Shown one piece after another: positions 3,514-58,112 of a DNA stretch of 64,000 nucleotides. A program made the translations under genes and the position numbers. Under the pieces are notes generated by a model. It made no database searches, was not told the origin of the DNA, and worked only from the letters and a program-made list of their open reading frames with translations. This stretch comes from Burkholderiales bacterium. GTDB taxonomy: Bacteria; Pseudomonadota; Gammaproteobacteria; Burkholderiales; Casimicrobiaceae. The stretch is taken from positions 1-64,000 of the forward strand of contig CAJPFI010000021.1 of NCBI GenBank assembly GCA_905339295.1, read 5' to 3'. Position 1 is the first letter of the stretch. Each line of letters begins with the position of its first letter.

Positions 3514-3621
3514 CGTCCGGCAGCGATCAGGTATCCAGGGACAAGGATCAGCGGCGTGGCGTTTGTCGTGACGGCGCATCGAGCGCCGGGCGCGAGTCGC
3601 GGATGCGGATGGGGTTCGGGC

Positions 3622-3856
3622 GTCGGGCTGAAGCCCGACCCACAGGCGCGATGCATGAACAGCGTCGGGCTGAAGCCCGACCCACAGGCGCGATGCATGA
3701 ACAGCGTCGGGCTGAAGTCCGACCCACAGGCGCGATGCATGAACGGCGTCGGGCTGAAGCCCGACCCACAGGCGCGATGCATGAACAGCGTCGGGCTGAA
3801 GCCCGACCCACAGGCGCGATGCATGAACAGCGCCGGGCTGAAGCCCGACCCACAGG
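3622..3856. repeat. Tandem array of a 42-bp REP-hairpin unit (5.6 copies)
   Basis: Unit starts fall exactly every 42 bp at 3622, 3664, 3706, 3748, 3790 and 3832; the last copy is cut off after about 25 bp. Each unit is the hairpin GTCGGGCTGAAGCCCGAC followed by a CCACAGG spacer containing ATGCATGAAC. Variation is slight: copy 3 has a hairpin mismatch (AAGTCCGAC), its spacer ends GAACGG, and copy 6 starts GCCGGG. Because 42 is a multiple of 3, frames stay open through it and give repetitive VGLKPDPQ- or RRAEARPTG-like translations that should not be taken as proteins. The array fills most of the 353-bp interval between trxB and the Smr gene. The remaining 3514-3621 holds nothing I recognise. 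Confidence 0.92.
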
Positions 3857-6043: not shown

Positions 6044-9000
6044 TTCGCCTTTTCCGCCGGCGCCGCCGGGTGCGCAGGCTCCGAGGTCGCCGGCGACGCG
6101 GGCGCGGCGGGGGCCGCGGACCCGGCCGGCGGCGCGGGCACCGGGCCGAGCGGACGCGTCCCGACCCGCGCCACGACCGGGTCGCTCCACGACCCGGTCA
6201 CGCGGTAATCGTACGAGAACATCTGCTCGATCGGATCCTTCATCGCCTTCTGCGCGAGCAGCGCGCCGGCGCCGAGCGCCGCCGCGACGAGGGGGTTCGC
6301 CGCGAGCAGCAGCATCGCGGCGCCGGCGGTCCCGGCCGAGAACGACGTCGACAGCGACGGCAGCACGCGCACGTTGAGCGTCTGCGTTTCCTTCGCGAGG
6401 TCGGCCTCGCCGCTGATGTCGACGCGCGCCGCGGGGCCGGCGAGCTTGAGGTCGTCGGCCGTCATCACGCCGCGCACGATGCGCAGGTTGCCCTCGATAT
6501 GGTCGAACGCGAAGCCTTCGCTGAAGACGTCGCGGAAGTCGAGCGACAGCCGGCGCGGCAGCGCCTGCAGCGACAGGACGCCGAGCAGCTTGCCGATGCC
6601 GGGCTCGATCTTGGTGAACTGGCCCGCGCCGACCTCGATCTTCAGCATCCCCGACAGCATGGCCGGATCGAACTCGGACGGCGCGCCCGGCCAGTCGAGC
6701 TGGCCCTTGATCGTCGTCGGGGCGGCGCGCACCGCGTCGGGAAAGCCGAAGCGTCGCAGCATCGCCCCCGCCTCCGGCGCCTCGAGCCCCACCTCGAGCC
6801 GGGTCTGCTGCGCCCTGCCGGCGGCGCGCCACCAGCCTTCGGCCTGCACGCGGCCGGCGTCGCTCGCGAGCACCAGCTTCTCGATGCGCCAGTCGGACGC
6901 CTGCGGCTTCGCGATCATCTCGAGGCGTCCGAGGTCGCGCCCCTTGGACAGGAGCGCGTCGCTCTGCACGTCGAGCTCCGGCCACGGGTTCGCGACGCCC
7001 TCCTCGCGCGCGCCCTTCCCGGCCTCCGCGCCCTGCCACGGCGCGAGCTCGCCCTCGTCGGGCACCGACATCCGCGCGAGGCGGCCGACGAGGCGGCCGT
7101 TCGGATGCTCGGGCGTCGCGGCGCGCCACGTCAATGCGCCGGCCGCTTCGCGCGCGACGAGCTGGATGCGCCAGTCCTCGCCGGTCGAGCGCGCGGTCGC
7201 CTTGACGTCGTTGAGCTTGCGCCCGAAAGCCTCGAAGACCGCCGCGTCGATGTCGATGCCCCGGATCGCCAGGCCGTCCGCCGGCGCGGCCGCCGCCGAA
7301 CGCGCCCGGGCCTGCTTGCGGAAAGCGAGCCAGTCGTCGAGGTTGAGCGACGGGAGGTCGCCTCGAATCCACACGCCCGCACGATCGTTCTCCGCAGGCT
7401 GCGTCGCGGCGCGACCCAGCAGCACGAGCGCCCGGTCCACCGTCGGTTCCTTTCCACCGACCTGCCGGTGCACGTGCACACGGCCGACGCGCGCGACGTC
7501 GACGACGAACGCGTCGGCCGCGCCCAGCGGGCCGGGTCGCCGCTCGATCCGCAGCGGCACGGAGTCGACCGCGGTCTTGCCTGCCGGCGCCGGCATGTCG
7601 ACGGCGGCGCCGCGCAGGCTCGAGTCGATCGTCCACTGCACCCGCCCCGCGCGCGACTCCATCGCGAGCGTCCAGTCGGTCGTGCCGGACACGCGGCTCG
7701 CGATCGCGTCGGGCAGGTCGTTGCGCAGCGCCGCGAGGTTGACGCTGCCCTGTCCGGTCACGCGCACGCCACCTTCGATCGCGGCGATCGACAGTTTCGC
7801 GGGACCGCCGAACACCTCGGCGGCGAGGTCCGTCGCGGACACACCGCGGTCGCCGAACGTAATGCGCCCGTCGACCTGCGAGAGCAGCGGCACTCCGGGC
7901 GCGCGCCACTGGTTGGCCGCCATCGTGTACTCGCCCGCGACGGTCGACCGGTCGACCGCGCCGAGCGGGATGCCGAGGCGCAGGGCGAGCTTTCCGTTGC
8001 CGGCCACCTGCGTGCCGTCGAGCGCGTGACCGATCCATCCGGCGACCGGGCTCGTCTGGATGAAGTGCACGAACTCGGCCGTGGGCCCGCTGGCCTCGCC
8101 ATCCACCGTGAGCTTGGGGACGCTGGCCGAGAGGTCGTCGATCTCCACGCGCGTGCGCCCGATCTGCGCGCCGTAAACGCGCCCTCTCGTCGCGTCGACC
8201 ACGAGCTTCGTGCGATCGATCCGCAGCTCGGCGTCGATGTCGCTGATCGCGGGCCAGCCCTCCACGTAGTCGATCGCGCCGCCGCGCGCCCTGGCGACGA
8301 TGAGGAGCGTGCCCTGCTTCGGGTCGGCGTAGGGAAACTGCGCGAGGTCGCCCTTGAGCGTCAGCCGCACGTCGTCGGACGTGCCGGCGGTGACGCCGCG
8401 GGTGATCCAGCCGCGCACCGCCGGGTCGAGCGCGAGCGGCAGGTAGCGCTGGAGCCCGCGCGCGTCTGCGCGCGTCAGGCGCGCCGTCAGGTCGACCGAT
8501 CCCGGGCCGGACTTCGCCGGGCGCCACGATCCCTGGGCGGTCCCCGCCGCATCCGCATTCGCGAACGCGAGACCGTCGACCTCGATCGAGTCGCCTTCGC
8601 TGCCGCGTCGCCAGCGAACGGTCCCCGTCATCGTGTCGAGCGCGATCGGGGCCGCGAGCAGGCGCGGAAGCGCGATCGTCACCGACTTGCTGCCCACCTT
8701 CGCGCTGCCGCCGCGCTCGTCCGCGGTGACCTTCGCCGACAGGCCGGACATGCCGGGCACGTCGCCGGCGGCCGCGATGCCGAGTTCGATCGCCTCGGCC
8801 TCGGCCGCGTACGACGTCGGCCCGTCGACCGGCCCTTCCCAGCGATAGCGAGCGTCGCGCAGCGTCCCGCGCGGCAGGTGGCGCGCGAGCACGTCGCGCC
8901 ACCTTTCGGGCATCGGCAGGCTCGCCGCGAGCGAGGCCAGCGGCGCGAGCTCGAGCACGTTCGCGCTCATGCGCCCGCTGCGGAAGCGGCCGTCGTCGCC

Positions 9001-10071
9001 GACCACCCCTTCGAGGGCGAGGTCGACCGGCGCGATCGGCACGCGGTGGCCGGTGACGAGCGCGAGGTCGCGCGTCGTGAAGCGCCGCGACGCGTTGTCG
9101 CCCAGCCAGGTGACGCGGCCGCTGACGCTCGCAAGCTCGAGGTTCGGCAGCGACGGCGCGAGCCGCGTGCTCACGTCGACGAGTTCGACGTCGGCGGTCA
9201 TGTCGCGAACGACGCCGCCCGCGAGCTCCGCCCACAGACGCAGCGCGCCGCGTCCGTCGCTGACCTCGACCGGCAGCGGGATCCAGCCGGCCCATGCGGC
9301 GAGGTCGGCGTAGTCGAGGCGCAGGTACACGCGCGCCTGCATCTGCGCGAGATCGTGCGTCGCGAGCCCGGTGAACTCGCCGCGCACGTCGATCGGCGAG
9401 GCGACCTCGGGAGGCGGGACACCGGTGAGCCCGAACCGGTGCCGGCGCGTGCCGATCGGATGCTCGAGGCGGAACTGGACGCGGTCGAGCACGAGCTGGG
9501 GCGCGCGGCGCCGCTCGTCGTTCCACAGGATCAGCGCGTCGCGCACGACGATCTCGCGCTGGCGCAGCAGCCAGTCGACGAGCCGCGTGTCGTCGACCGT
9601 CGACTCCGGATCGAACGAAAGACCCGCGACATGGATGCGGCCGGCGGCGTCGCGCGTGAGCGCGAGCTGCGGCCGTTCGATCGCGAGCTCCTTCAGGTGC
9701 AGGTCGCGCAACGGCAGCGACAGCCACGAGATCGTCGCCTCGACGCGGGGCAGCTCGAGCAGCGGCCGCCCGTCCGTGCCGGCCCGGTCGCGAACCGTGA
9801 GCCCGGTCACGACGAGCTTCGGGCTCCAGCCGTCCCAGCCGGTCGACAGACCCTCGATCGCCACGGGCGCGCCCAGCACCTGCGTCAGGCGCTCGGCGAT
9901 CTCGGGGCGGTACGCCTCGACGCGCGGCAACAGGACGTAGCGAACCACGAGCAGCGAGACGCACACGAGCACGACCGCGCTCGCGAGCAGGGTGCCGGCG
10001 AGGCCAACGAGGCGCGCGGCCCGCGAGCGAGTCGCGGCCGCCGACGCGGCGGATTCTGGCGCGACAGGCAT
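6040..10071 (-). CDS. yhdP: YhdP-family giant AsmA-like envelope protein
   Basis: A 1343-aa inner-membrane-anchored protein with a single N-terminal transmembrane helix (about residues 24-48, LAGTLLASAVVLVCVSLLV) and a very long periplasmic part made of repeated beta-strand segments. Family members are AsmA-like bridge proteins; E. coli YhdP affects phospholipid movement to the outer membrane. The C-terminal third carries the recognisable DUF3971/AsmA portion with LPSLSTSFSAGTAGAAMLL and KAMKDPIEQMFSYDYRVTGSW. It ends in a Pro/Ala-rich tail. Length is normal for the family. It is divergent from glnE (74 bp between starts) and overlaps the downstream nitrilase by 4 nt. Confidence 0.9.
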   Translation of the reverse strand: MPVAPESAASAAATRSRAARLVGLAGTLLASAVVLVCVSLLVVRYVLLPRVEAYRPEIAERLTQVLGAPVAIEGLSTGWDGWSPKLVVTGLTVRDRAGTDGRPLLELPRVEATISWLSLPLRDLHLKELAIERPQLALTRDAAGRIHVAGLSFDPESTVDDTRLVDWLLRQREIVVRDALILWNDERRRAPQLVLDRVQFRLEHPIGTRRHRFGLTGVPPPEVASPIDVRGEFTGLATHDLAQMQARVYLRLDYADLAAWAGWIPLPVEVSDGRGALRLWAELAGGVVRDMTADVELVDVSTRLAPSLPNLELASVSGRVTWLGDNASRRFTTRDLALVTGHRVPIAPVDLALEGVVGDDGRFRSGRMSANVLELAPLASLAASLPMPERWRDVLARHLPRGTLRDARYRWEGPVDGPTSYAAEAEAIELGIAAAGDVPGMSGLSAKVTADERGGSAKVGSKSVTIALPRLLAAPIALDTMTGTVRWRRGSEGDSIEVDGLAFANADAAGTAQGSWRPAKSGPGSVDLTARLTRADARGLQRYLPLALDPAVRGWITRGVTAGTSDDVRLTLKGDLAQFPYADPKQGTLLIVARARGGAIDYVEGWPAISDIDAELRIDRTKLVVDATRGRVYGAQIGRTRVEIDDLSASVPKLTVDGEASGPTAEFVHFIQTSPVAGWIGHALDGTQVAGNGKLALRLGIPLGAVDRSTVAGEYTMAANQWRAPGVPLLSQVDGRITFGDRGVSATDLAAEVFGGPAKLSIAAIEGGVRVTGQGSVNLAALRNDLPDAIASRVSGTTDWTLAMESRAGRVQWTIDSSLRGAAVDMPAPAGKTAVDSVPLRIERRPGPLGAADAFVVDVARVGRVHVHRQVGGKEPTVDRALVLLGRAATQPAENDRAGVWIRGDLPSLNLDDWLAFRKQARARSAAAAPADGLAIRGIDIDAAVFEAFGRKLNDVKATARSTGEDWRIQLVAREAAGALTWRAATPEHPNGRLVGRLARMSVPDEGELAPWQGAEAGKGAREEGVANPWPELDVQSDALLSKGRDLGRLEMIAKPQASDWRIEKLVLASDAGRVQAEGWWRAAGRAQQTRLEVGLEAPEAGAMLRRFGFPDAVRAAPTTIKGQLDWPGAPSEFDPAMLSGMLKIEVGAGQFTKIEPGIGKLLGVLSLQALPRRLSLDFRDVFSEGFAFDHIEGNLRIVRGVMTADDLKLAGPAARVDISGEADLAKETQTLNVRVLPSLSTSFSAGTAGAAMLLLAANPLVAAALGAGALLAQKAMKDPIEQMFSYDYRVTGSWSDPVVARVGTRPLGPVPAPPAGSAAPAAPASPATSEPAHPAAPAEKAK

Positions 10072-54002: not shown

Positions 54003-56036
<2,034 letters not shown>

Positions 56037-56069
56037 GGCGCGGTGATTCCCGGCGTGGCCAATCGGCTA

Positions 56070-56098
56070 TCTTACGTCGAACGATCGTTCGGGCGCCA
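56070..56098 (-). promoter_or_regulatory. uvrB promoter
   Basis: On the minus strand: -35 TGGCGC (56098-56093), a 17-bp spacer, -10 TAAGAT (56075-56070), leader of about 26 nt before uvrB. Both boxes are weak matches. The spacer holds the LexA-like palindrome, so a bound repressor would block polymerase. Confidence 0.4.
56078..56091. promoter_or_regulatory. LexA (SOS) box of Bacillus-like type in front of uvrB
   Basis: CGAACGATCGTTCG is a perfect 14-bp palindrome 42 bp upstream of the uvrB ATG. Its core GAACGATCGTTC matches 11 of 12 positions of the noncanonical LexA motif I recall being reported for Sideroxydans and related Betaproteobacteria (GAACGaaCGTTC), and is close to the Bacillus form CGAAC-N4-GTTCG. 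It does not resemble the usual betaproteobacterial CTGT-N8-ACAG. Regulation of uvrB by LexA is well known in other bacteria; that this site is used here is an inference. Confidence 0.75.
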
Positions 56099-56174: not shown

Positions 56175-56298
56175 GTCGGGCTGAAGCCCGACCCACAAGC
56201 CATGCACCACGCCCGAAACCGATGTAGGTCCGGCTTCAGCCCGACACATCATCCATGCGCCTCGCCCGAAACCGCCGTGGGTCGGGCTTCAGCCCGAC
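56175..56298. repeat. Cluster of three REP-like hairpins between msbA-like gene and uvrB
   Basis: Three copies of the same palindrome as at 13-34 and 3622-3856: 56175-56196 in one orientation, then 56224-56247 and 56277-56298 in the other. The last two are 53 bp apart and share flanking CATGC and GCCCGAAACCG, so they are a tandem 53-bp duplication. The second has a GTCCGG variant. The third overlaps the end of the upstream ABC transporter gene and supplies its TGA stop. The cluster separates two minus-strand transcripts. Confidence 0.9.
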
Positions 56299-58112
56299 AA
56301 CCTTCCGTCCTCCAGCGCTCGGCCGGCAACGGCGAACTGGAGTTCCGCGAGGCGTGCGTAGAGCTCGTTGTCGCGGACCAGCGCGTCGTGGGTCCCGGAC
56401 GCGATCGACCGTCCGCGATCCATCACGACGATGCGGTCGGCGTGGCGCACGGTGGCGAGCCGGTGCGCGATGATGAGCGTCGTGCGGCTCGCCATCAGCC
56501 GCTCGATCGCGAGCTGCACCATGCGCTCGCTCTCCGCGTCGAGCGCGCTGGTCGCCTCGTCGAGCAGCAGGATCGGCCGGTCGGCGAGTACCGCCCGCGC
56601 GATGGCGAGCCGCTGCCGCTGCCCGCCCGACAGCCGCACGCCGCGCTCGCCGAGGAAGCTCGCGTAGCCATTCGGCAACCGCTCGACGAACTCGGTCGCG
56701 TAGGCCGCCTCGCACGCCGCGCGCACGTCGTCCTCGCTCGCGTCGGGCCGCCCATAGCGCACGTTGTCGATCACGTTCGCGGCGAAGACCACGGGATCCT
56801 GCGGCACCACGGCGATGCGTCGCCGGACCTCCGCGGGATCGGCGCCGCGCACGTCGACCCCGTCGATCCGCACCGATCCCACCTGCGGATCGTAGAAACG
56901 CAGCAGCAGCTGGAAGACCGTGGTCTTGCCCGCGCCCGACGGGCCGACGAGCGCGACGCGCTCGCCCGGCCGCACCGCCAGCGAAAAGTCCTCGAGCGCC
57001 GGAGCGTCCGGCCGCGACGGATAGTGGAACGTCACGCCGTCGATCGCGATCTCGCCGCGCGGCGGCGAGGGCATCGCAACCGGATGCGCGGGCGCCGCGA
57101 TCCCGGGCACCGCCTCGAGCAGCTCGAACAACCGCTCGGTGGCGCCCGCCGCACGCTGCAGGTCGCCGACCACCTCGCTGATCGCCGCGACCGCGCCCGC
57201 GACGAGCACCGCGTAGAACACGAACGCCGACAGCTGGCCCGCACTCATGCGCCCGGCGAGCACGTCGTGCCCGCCGATCCACAGGATCACCCCGATCGCG
57301 CCGAACACGAGCAGGATCACGATGGCGACGAGCGCCGCCCGCTGACGGAAACGCGCGCGCGCGGCCTCGAACGCCCTCTCGACGCGATCGCCGAACCCCC
57401 GGCGGTCCTCCCCTTCGTGCACATATGCCTGCACGGTGCGGATCTCGTGCAGCGCTTCGTCGACGTAGGCGCCGACGTCACCGAGACGGTCCTGGCTCGC
57501 GCGCGCGAGCTTGCGCGCACGGCGCCCGAACAGCACGATCGGCGCCACCGTCAGCGGCACGCCGACCAGTACCAGCAGCGTGAGCTTGGGGCTCGTGAGC
57601 GCGAGCATCACCATCCCGCCGACGAACAGCAGCAGGTTGCGTGTCGCGAGCGACGCCGACGTGCCGACCACCATGTCGAGCATCGTGGTGTCGCTGGTCA
57701 GCCGCGAGATCACCTCGCCGGTGCGCGTCACCTCGAACCAGCCGGGCGGCATCTCCATCAGGTGATCGAATACCGCGAGGCGCAGGTCGTTGGTCACGCG
57801 CTCGCCCAGCCACGAGACGAAGTAAAAGCGCGTGTACGTCGCCGCCGCCATCACGACGACCACCAGCATCAGCCACGCCAGCGCCCGATCGAGCGCGGCG
57901 GGATCGCCCGCGAGGAAGCCGCCGTCGATCGCGACCCGCACGCCCTGCCCGATCGCCAGCACCGCGCCGGCCGCCGCGACCAGCGCGACCGCGGCGACCA
58001 CGACGCGCCAGCCGTACGGCCGCACGAAGCGGCCGATGCGCGCGAGCACGCGCAGCGCCGTCGCGGGCGGCAGCCTGGGAGCGTCGATCGGGATGCGGTC
58101 GCGGCGGGCCAT
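56289..58112 (-). CDS. MsbA-like ABC transporter (fused membrane and ATPase domains)
   Basis: A 607-aa half-transporter of the ABCB/lipid A exporter type, acting as a homodimer in the inner membrane. Six transmembrane helices lie in residues about 25-310. A coupling loop (LMEMPPGWFEVTRTGEVISRLTSDTTMLD) is followed by the ATPase: Walker A VGPSGAGKTTVF near 370, Q-loop VVPQDPVVFAANV, signature VRLSGGQRQRLAIARA, Walker B ILLLDEATSALD and H-loop IIAHRLATVRHADR. The ATG at 58112 (MARRDRIPID) is chosen; the frame is open upstream to 58349. The last residues and stop are encoded by a REP element. Substrate is probably a lipid or hydrophobic compound. Confidence 0.9.
   Translation of the reverse strand: MARRDRIPIDAPRLPPATALRVLARIGRFVRPYGWRVVVAAVALVAAAGAVLAIGQGVRVAIDGGFLAGDPAALDRALAWLMLVVVVMAAATYTRFYFVSWLGERVTNDLRLAVFDHLMEMPPGWFEVTRTGEVISRLTSDTTMLDMVVGTSASLATRNLLLFVGGMVMLALTSPKLTLLVLVGVPLTVAPIVLFGRRARKLARASQDRLGDVGAYVDEALHEIRTVQAYVHEGEDRRGFGDRVERAFEAARARFRQRAALVAIVILLVFGAIGVILWIGGHDVLAGRMSAGQLSAFVFYAVLVAGAVAAISEVVGDLQRAAGATERLFELLEAVPGIAAPAHPVAMPSPPRGEIAIDGVTFHYPSRPDAPALEDFSLAVRPGERVALVGPSGAGKTTVFQLLLRFYDPQVGSVRIDGVDVRGADPAEVRRRIAVVPQDPVVFAANVIDNVRYGRPDASEDDVRAACEAAYATEFVERLPNGYASFLGERGVRLSGGQRQRLAIARAVLADRPILLLDEATSALDAESERMVQLAIERLMASRTTLIIAHRLATVRHADRIVVMDRGRSIASGTHDALVRDNELYARLAELQFAVAGRALEDGRLSG

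Follow-up and report, generated by a model that had tools for sequence, protein, structure and literature searches.

The LexA box of Bacillus and of the Actinobacteria is GAAC-N4-GTTC, and LexA2 of Pseudomonas putida is said to read the motif GTAC-N4-GTGC. A noncanonical LexA regulon has reportedly been described for Sideroxydans and Gallionella by Sanchez-Alberola et al. (2015, J Bacteriol 197:2622). P. putida has two LexAs, of which LexA2 is co-transcribed with imuA-imuB-imuC (dnaE2) and controls these genes (PMC3901139, PMC5261740). A standing question is how a LexA can acquire a new DNA code while the SOS response stays intact. One survey puts the number of reported LexA motifs at 17 and proposes duplication, divergence and re-uptake for SOS evolution; its model includes a two-LexA stage in which one of the two has a changed motif (PMC8565304).

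The locus compared here with these systems is the uvrB promoter in a 64-kb window, that is, the whole stretch of DNA that was analysed. Three features of this region are used below; LexG is a LexA-like protein encoded elsewhere in the same genome.

54003..56036, minus strand: uvrB, excinuclease ABC subunit B, 677 amino acids (open reading frame plus NCBIfam NF003673 and TIGR00631)
56069..56074, minus strand: -10-like hexamer TAAGAT, read from the sequence, 3 bp downstream of the predicted operator
56078..56091, no strand: predicted LexG operator CGAACGATCGTTCG, core GAACGATCGTTC (56079-56090), exact match

The identity of UvrB is clear, since NF003673 and TIGR00631 both score far above their cut-offs (NCBIfam score of 1070 bits against a cut-off of 743). 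The perfect palindrome that the initial annotation had reported was recovered with exactly its coordinates and sequence, CGAACGATCGTTCG at 56078-56091, both on reading the sequence and in a pattern search of the window; its near edge lies 42 bp upstream of the first base of the uvrB ATG. It is the only exact copy of CGAAC-N4-GTTCG in the 64 kb. When up to two mismatches were allowed, 95 matches were found against 68.8 expected, so weak matches to this pattern say little. The palindrome had also been placed between a -35 and a -10 box. The downstream half of this claim held, as TAAGAT resembles a -10 hexamer and TACAAT or TAGAAT replaces it at the same place in five relatives with a GAAC box (G335, G341, G336, G353 and G083). 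The upstream half did not, as a consensus scan at uvrB found no sigma-70 promoter and no convincing -35, so that the placement depends on the -10 element. We also noticed REP-like palindromes around GGGCTTCAGCCCGAC, with 18 matches in the window at up to two mismatches on both strands against 0.47 expected; they form clusters at 56175-56299 and 3620-3856, one of them just upstream of the uvrB promoter.

In the 4.03-Mb genome, GAAC-N4-GTTC occurs 47 times, compared with 11 times for a reversed-pattern control. The exact 12-mer GAACGATCGTTC has four copies, all of them at SOS genes: one at uvrB, one at recA (C50:66135, 118 bp upstream of the aligned RecA start) and two at lexG on contig C33, 26 bp upstream of the ATG and over codons 2-6. 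From base composition 0.07 copies would be expected genome-wide, taking the G+C content of the window, 71.9%, as the value for the genome. The genome-wide search thus confirmed, for recA and a LexA-like gene, the expectation that further boxes stand at SOS genes. A regulon of CTGT-N8-ACAG boxes, which had been named as evidence against the annotation, was absent at the exact-match level (one match, against six for the control). The idea that the GAAC-N4-GTTC sites make up a large regulon was rejected, as over half of them lie inside genes according to a rough GC3-based gene call that merges sites having identical flanks. A separate observation concerns contig C43, where an N6-methylase ORF, related to a defence-system methyltransferase, has a GAACGTTCGTTC box (L022 8757-8768, C43:12756) 57 bp upstream and, nearby, an ORF that by eye looks like an integrase; this locus is a possible SOS-controlled mobile island.

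LexG is an S24/LexA-like protein of 191 residues (S24 domain PF00717, E 7.6e-27). Ala78-Gly79, which we take to be the LexA cleavage site, and Ser114 and Lys151, presumably the catalytic dyad, were invariant in 11 of 11 aligned homologs. Two LexA models were narrowly missed: the DNA-binding domain PF01726 matched residues 8-58 with 21.0 bits (cut-off 23.7), and the LexA equivalog TIGR00498 gave 107.1 bits, just below its cut-off of 110.95. With our own threshold of at least 175 residues at an identity of at least 49%, homologs of LexG were found in 74 of 300 sampled genomes of the order, belonging to 22 families. Because this occurrence is patchy, LexG was probably acquired, and the same spread makes the box a weak taxonomic clue, contrary to what had been suggested. 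Nine of 11 named lexG loci (L239-L249) have the GAAC box; the Sterolibacterium-named L247 and the Nitrosomonadales-named L249 are without it. A protein in the Gallionella sp. STC_117 record is 59% identical to LexG and has the box about 28 bp upstream of the start of the match, and one in the Sideroxydans sp. STC_76 record is 57% identical with the box about 80 bp upstream, a likeness that concerns records so named and not the species studied in 2015. The noncanonical LexA that the initial annotation had deduced from the box thus agrees with the protein encoded in the genome, and LexG fits the noncanonical betaproteobacterial LexA of the GAACGaaCGTTC type described in 2015, which is the already-known part of the system.

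The second GAAC box over lexG codons 2-6, present in the own genus, was also seen in family f15 (L056, L057 and L058). In addition, inverted repeats beginning GGGGTCAGAGC were noticed directly after lexG in L019 (about 9060-9150) and over the start of the imuA ORF in L025 (about 8640-8725); given this overlap, imuA may actually begin further downstream.

A LexA of standard profile, here called LexC, shares the genome with LexG (C21:157530; PF01726, E 1.1e-25; TIGR00498, 232.4 bits against the cut-off of 110.95). The premise that a standard-type LexA would be absent therefore failed, although no exact CTGT box was found upstream of lexC in this genome. Instead, this region contains TACCGTCTATAATGACGGTA, and the same region in relatives contains TACCG-N10-CGGTA. 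The genes following lexC are, in order, cdd1, imuA, a dinB-family gene and imuB, which was identified by its IMS domain and its position. A further exact TACCG-N10-CGGTA sits on the start of dnaE2, its final base coinciding with the A of the ATG. The GAAC box, which had been expected at imuB and dnaE2 as well, is thus not the code of these genes; lexC, with imuA and imuB downstream, and dnaE2 have the TACCG box. As dnaE2 lies about 9 kb from lexC and has a box of its own, a single transcript from lexC through dnaE2 seems unlikely.

Among 22 genomes of the own genus the exact TACCG-N10-CGGTA pattern has 47 matches, of which 28 stand at lexC (12) or dnaE2 (16). The pattern is rarer than its reversed control, both in the own genome (4 against 7) and over the 22 genomes (47 against 159, the latter being our own sum); the remaining two copies of the own genome stand at neither gene. 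In 16 of the 22 genomes an exact box was found 19 to 116 bp upstream of the aligned dnaE2 start, a count that is no independent test since these boxes were found by motif search. TACCG-N10-CGGTA is the predicted operator of LexC, and its presence beside an imuA-imuB LexA is the new part of the system. A TACCG box also precedes a radical SAM gene in G337 (L437; PA0069 family by HMM) and in G347 (L459; similar by eye). PA0069 is a LexA target in Pseudomonas aeruginosa; its name was absent among the matches listed in our literature search.

To see how far these boxes are conserved, we searched 64 genomes of the own family (f1), most of them drafts, for LexG, UvrB, LexC and RecA, and counted the boxes where the start of the gene was readable: lexG in 29 genomes, recA in 54 of 57 genomes with a match, uvrB in 51 of 57, and lexC (lexA in genus g2) in 34 of 46, the last count leaving out eight short g2 loci, two g3 loci and two unfetched matches. 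Fisher tests on these counts ignore kinship. By our estimate a one-mismatch match arises by chance in a random 300-bp stretch with a probability of about 12% for the CTGT box and about 1% for the TACCG box, so one-mismatch CTGT matches are weak evidence. The GAAC box was found at lexG in 29 of 29 family homologs, with both sites in all 26 of the own genus (g1), g136 and g137 and one site in g3 (2) and g138 (1). At recA it was equally constant in four genera (g1 20/20, g136 3/3, g137 4/4, g3 2/2; 29/29 together) and was absent in g2 (0/17) and g4 (0/8). Six draft genomes have the box at recA and no LexG match (G344, G347, G349, G354, G301 and G321), perhaps owing to assembly gaps.

At lexC, a TACCG box with at most one mismatch was present in 25 of 25 genomes of g1, g136 and g137 (exact in 13) and in none of nine in g2. 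The latter genus has one LexA, of the canonical type, with lexA and recA as neighbours in the nine g2 loci with flanks; a CTGT box stands at lexA in nine of nine with at most one mismatch (exact in five) and, in exact form, at recA in 11 of 17. No GAAC box was found at lexC in 34 readable family promoters or at dnaE2 in 16, and no TACCG box at recA or lexG in the readable family promoters. In the two g3 genomes, neither a TACCG nor a CTGT box was found upstream of lexC. The genomes of g4 are small and gave no LexC match (0/11), and none of the three boxes was found at recA (8) or uvrB (9).

The sites and genes, their conservation and the near-complete non-overlap of the boxes are direct observations, and from them we infer binding, repression, cleavage, timing and acquisition in the following scheme. 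We consider it quite probable that the SOS response of this organism is split, with a LexG box at uvrB, LexG serving repair and LexC serving the mutasome. The uvrB palindrome would be an operator of LexG, and LexG would repress uvrB, recA and its own gene, the last through two operators, of which one lies in the promoter and the other covers codons 2-6. After DNA damage, RecA filaments would induce the self-cleavage of LexG at the Ala-Gly bond by the Ser-Lys dyad, and the repair genes would rise. LexC would control its own gene and the error-prone mutasome, made up of imuA-imuB and dnaE2. Both LexAs would be cleaved via RecA, and the two circuits would thus be separate at the DNA and coupled through RecA. 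Since recA would be under LexG and cleavage of LexC would need RecA, the mutagenic branch may come second and lag behind repair.

LexC also differs from the canonical type in its recognition helix and in the code that it is predicted to read. Residues 39, 41, 42, 44 and 45 of LexA touch DNA (helix residues are given in E. coli numbering). All 27 LexC rows (g1, g136, g137 and g3) have Ser-Ser at 41-42, where all nine g2 LexA rows and E. coli have Asn-Ala; among 24 LexAs from other families, 23 have Asn at residue 41, the exception being G012. The helix of LexC in the own genome reads FSTASSAEDHL, against a typical canonical F[RK]SANAAEEHL, and was found in this form in 13 of 18 g1 genomes (own included) and two of four g136 genomes, the others varying at 38-40. 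Asp45 is also present in CTGT-type LexAs and is therefore no mark of the helix change. The TACCG-N10-CGGTA box differs from the canonical TACTGT-N8-ACAGTA by about one base per half-site. Inspection of the recognition helix, as the initial annotation had proposed, thus revealed a LexC that departs from the canonical type at 41-42, but its predicted operator is TACCG and not GAAC.

In G012 (family f13) the helix is KSPASAEEHL, and TACCGTATAAATTTACGGTA stands at a canonical-type lexA beside recA; this genome has a second canonical-type LexA match, and its best LexG match reached only E 3.0e-16. A convergent origin of its code is no more than a possibility, since a tree that joins its LexA with LexC was not rejected (p-AU 0.45). 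As to LexG itself, the family sequences formed one clade of 27 rows (SH-aLRT 89, quick tree); the LexG of G323 (g138, 68% complete) lay apart from this clade, and the split G318 was left out.

Additionally, we surveyed 50 of the 74 LexG-positive genomes for a second LexA. A close canonical LexA was found in addition to LexG in 13 of the 50; in the other 37 the best match was weaker than E 1e-40, one of them being G045 with a canonical LexA that is 40% identical. Upstream of the canonical LexA, the 13 two-LexA genomes have an exact CTGT box in eight cases, the TACCG box in the own genome and a GGTGATA-like motif in two, and in two nothing was found. The imuA gene lies inside the fetched flank in six of nine two-LexA loci with flanks outside the own family. 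In G022 and G250 of family f23 (L205 and L206), the second LexA has another helix, and by eye a GGTGATA-TATCACC-like palindrome was seen upstream.

It is about as likely as not that the family preserves the steps of an SOS take-over: g2 would represent a single CTGT LexA with boxes at lexA, recA and uvrB; in g1, g136, g137 and g3 a GAAC LexA would have captured recA and in some cases uvrB; in g1, g136 and g137 the canonical-type LexA would have specialised on the mutasome with a TACCG code, chiefly through helix residues 41 and 42, which would turn CTGT into CCGT; and uvrB would have been re-wired between codes (CTGT, GAAC and possibly TACCG in G350), leaving repair and mutagenesis under separate repressors in one cell. 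This series presupposes that the CTGT state is the older one. A serious, though in our judgement less probable, possibility is that LexC was not a resident LexA changed in place and arrived from elsewhere with the imu cassette, its operator and helix already altered. The LexCs of g1, g136 and g137 form one clade with support of 100/99 that is not placed next to the g2 LexA, and in G012, from another family, the operator is similar and the helix likewise altered, and the LexA of G012 forms one clade with LexC in a tree that was not rejected (p-AU 0.45); both points fit such an arrival. Against it, a single clade of all own-family LexAs was not rejected either (p-AU 0.82, against the quick tree), and the second LexA has an exact CTGT box in eight of the 12 other two-LexA genomes.

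The uvrB box is less constant than those at lexG and recA. Counted by genus, GAAC boxes at uvrB are present in g1 5/17, g3 2/2, g136 0/4, g137 0/4, g2 0/15 and g4 0/9, that is, in seven of the 27 genomes of g1, g136, g137 and g3. As 12 of 17 own-genus genomes and all eight of g136 and g137 have no exact box, uvrB is not a constant member of the regulon. The boxes that are present stand at -48 to -65 in the five own-genus genomes and at -53 and -54 in the two of g3. In g2 the uvrB promoter has a CTGT box, exact in nine of 15 and with at most one mismatch in 13, and in the seven cases printed the box lies at -45 or -46; the code at uvrB thus goes by genus, with CTGT in g2 and GAAC in g3 and part of g1. 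G350 has TACCGTTAATCTATACGGTT at -40 of uvrB, a TACCG box with one mismatch, so the separation of the boxes is not absolute.

Of 80 sampled genomes from the order, two (G000 and G083) have an exact GAAC box and two others (G038 and G228) an exact CTGT box within 200 bp of uvrB, all four from the own family; neither box was found in exact form within this distance in any of the 71 genomes outside it. One-mismatch matches at uvrB elsewhere among the 80, such as a GAAC box in G297, were not counted. A putative LexA-type box at uvrB is, by this absence from all outside genomes, a family trait in this sample, with a code that varies with the LexA present. The suggestion that SOS control of uvrB is a general mark of genomes with a GAAC-type LexA was rejected, the exact boxes among the 80 genomes being confined to the own family.

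The gaps just described, together with the lack of a convincing -35 at uvrB, would suit a box that works at lexG and recA only, the uvrB copy being a matter of chance or a relic. We think this improbable, because the exact 12-mer has so low an expectation genome-wide (0.07), because the uvrB GAAC boxes recur in five own-genus and two g3 genomes, beside a -10-like hexamer where printed, and because the CTGT boxes of g2 show LexA-type boxes at uvrB to be a recurrent feature of the family. That the canonical-type LexC reads the GAAC boxes, LexG being a bystander or a phage-type repressor, is highly improbable: LexC is the better HMM match to LexA, with LexG narrowly under the TIGR00498 and PF01726 cut-offs, but the GAAC box is missing at lexC (0/34) and constant at family lexG (29/29), it stands upstream in 29 of the 30 best lexG loci of the order (all except L077; 19 of the 30 belong to LexG-only genomes, six to genomes with both LexAs and five to genomes outside the tested set), 37 of 50 LexG-positive genomes have no close canonical LexA, and g2, with the canonical LexA only, has no GAAC box at recA (0/17) or uvrB (0/15).

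We thus favour the split SOS response, with LexG predicted to control repair and LexC the mutasome. For the question of how LexA changes its code, the family offers a series of the kind that the published model passes through, within related genomes and with recognition helix and operator co-varying in a way that the exchange of a few residues in a laboratory LexA could test. Separate repressors for repair and mutagenesis, if they exist, could allow the mutation rate to be tuned independently of repair. No earlier report of a two-LexA SOS response split between repair and mutasome was found among the matches listed in our literature searches, whose scope fell short of most subscription journals.

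Compared with the known systems, the LexA of Bacillus and the Actinobacteria shares the GAAC half-site. The description of the box as 'Bacillus-like' is apt for the half-site and for nothing beyond it, as the proteins are distant, long actinobacterial matches being about 30-37% identical to LexG. With the regulon reported for Sideroxydans and Gallionella, the present system shares a GAACG-NN-CGTTC-type operator, a LexA-like S24 repressor unlike the standard betaproteobacterial LexA, and the repressor's own gene and recA as targets. It differs in having a second LexA alongside, with its own predicted operator and mutagenesis genes, in two operators at lexG, one of them over the coding start, and in uvrB as a lineage-specific target.

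LexA1 and LexA2 of P. putida are the closest functional parallel, since there too two LexAs are present and the second stands beside imuA-imuB. The layout here is of the same type, with lexC, imuA and imuB in order and one box type, TACCG, at lexC and dnaE2 alike. In P. putida, however, the core LexA is canonical, whereas here it is of the GAAC type and the imu-linked LexA has TACCG-N10-CGGTA; moreover, dnaE2 lies outside the cassette here, under its own box. With the duplication-and-divergence model (PMC8565304) the system shares that one of two LexAs diverges in its operator and the other controls the regulon. That model starts from a duplication within the genome, whereas in the present genomes the two LexAs belong to different lineages and the canonical-type one persists with a narrow task. 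The series in this family looks like a retained intermediate of the duplication-and-divergence model, with the other LexA drawn from a different lineage.
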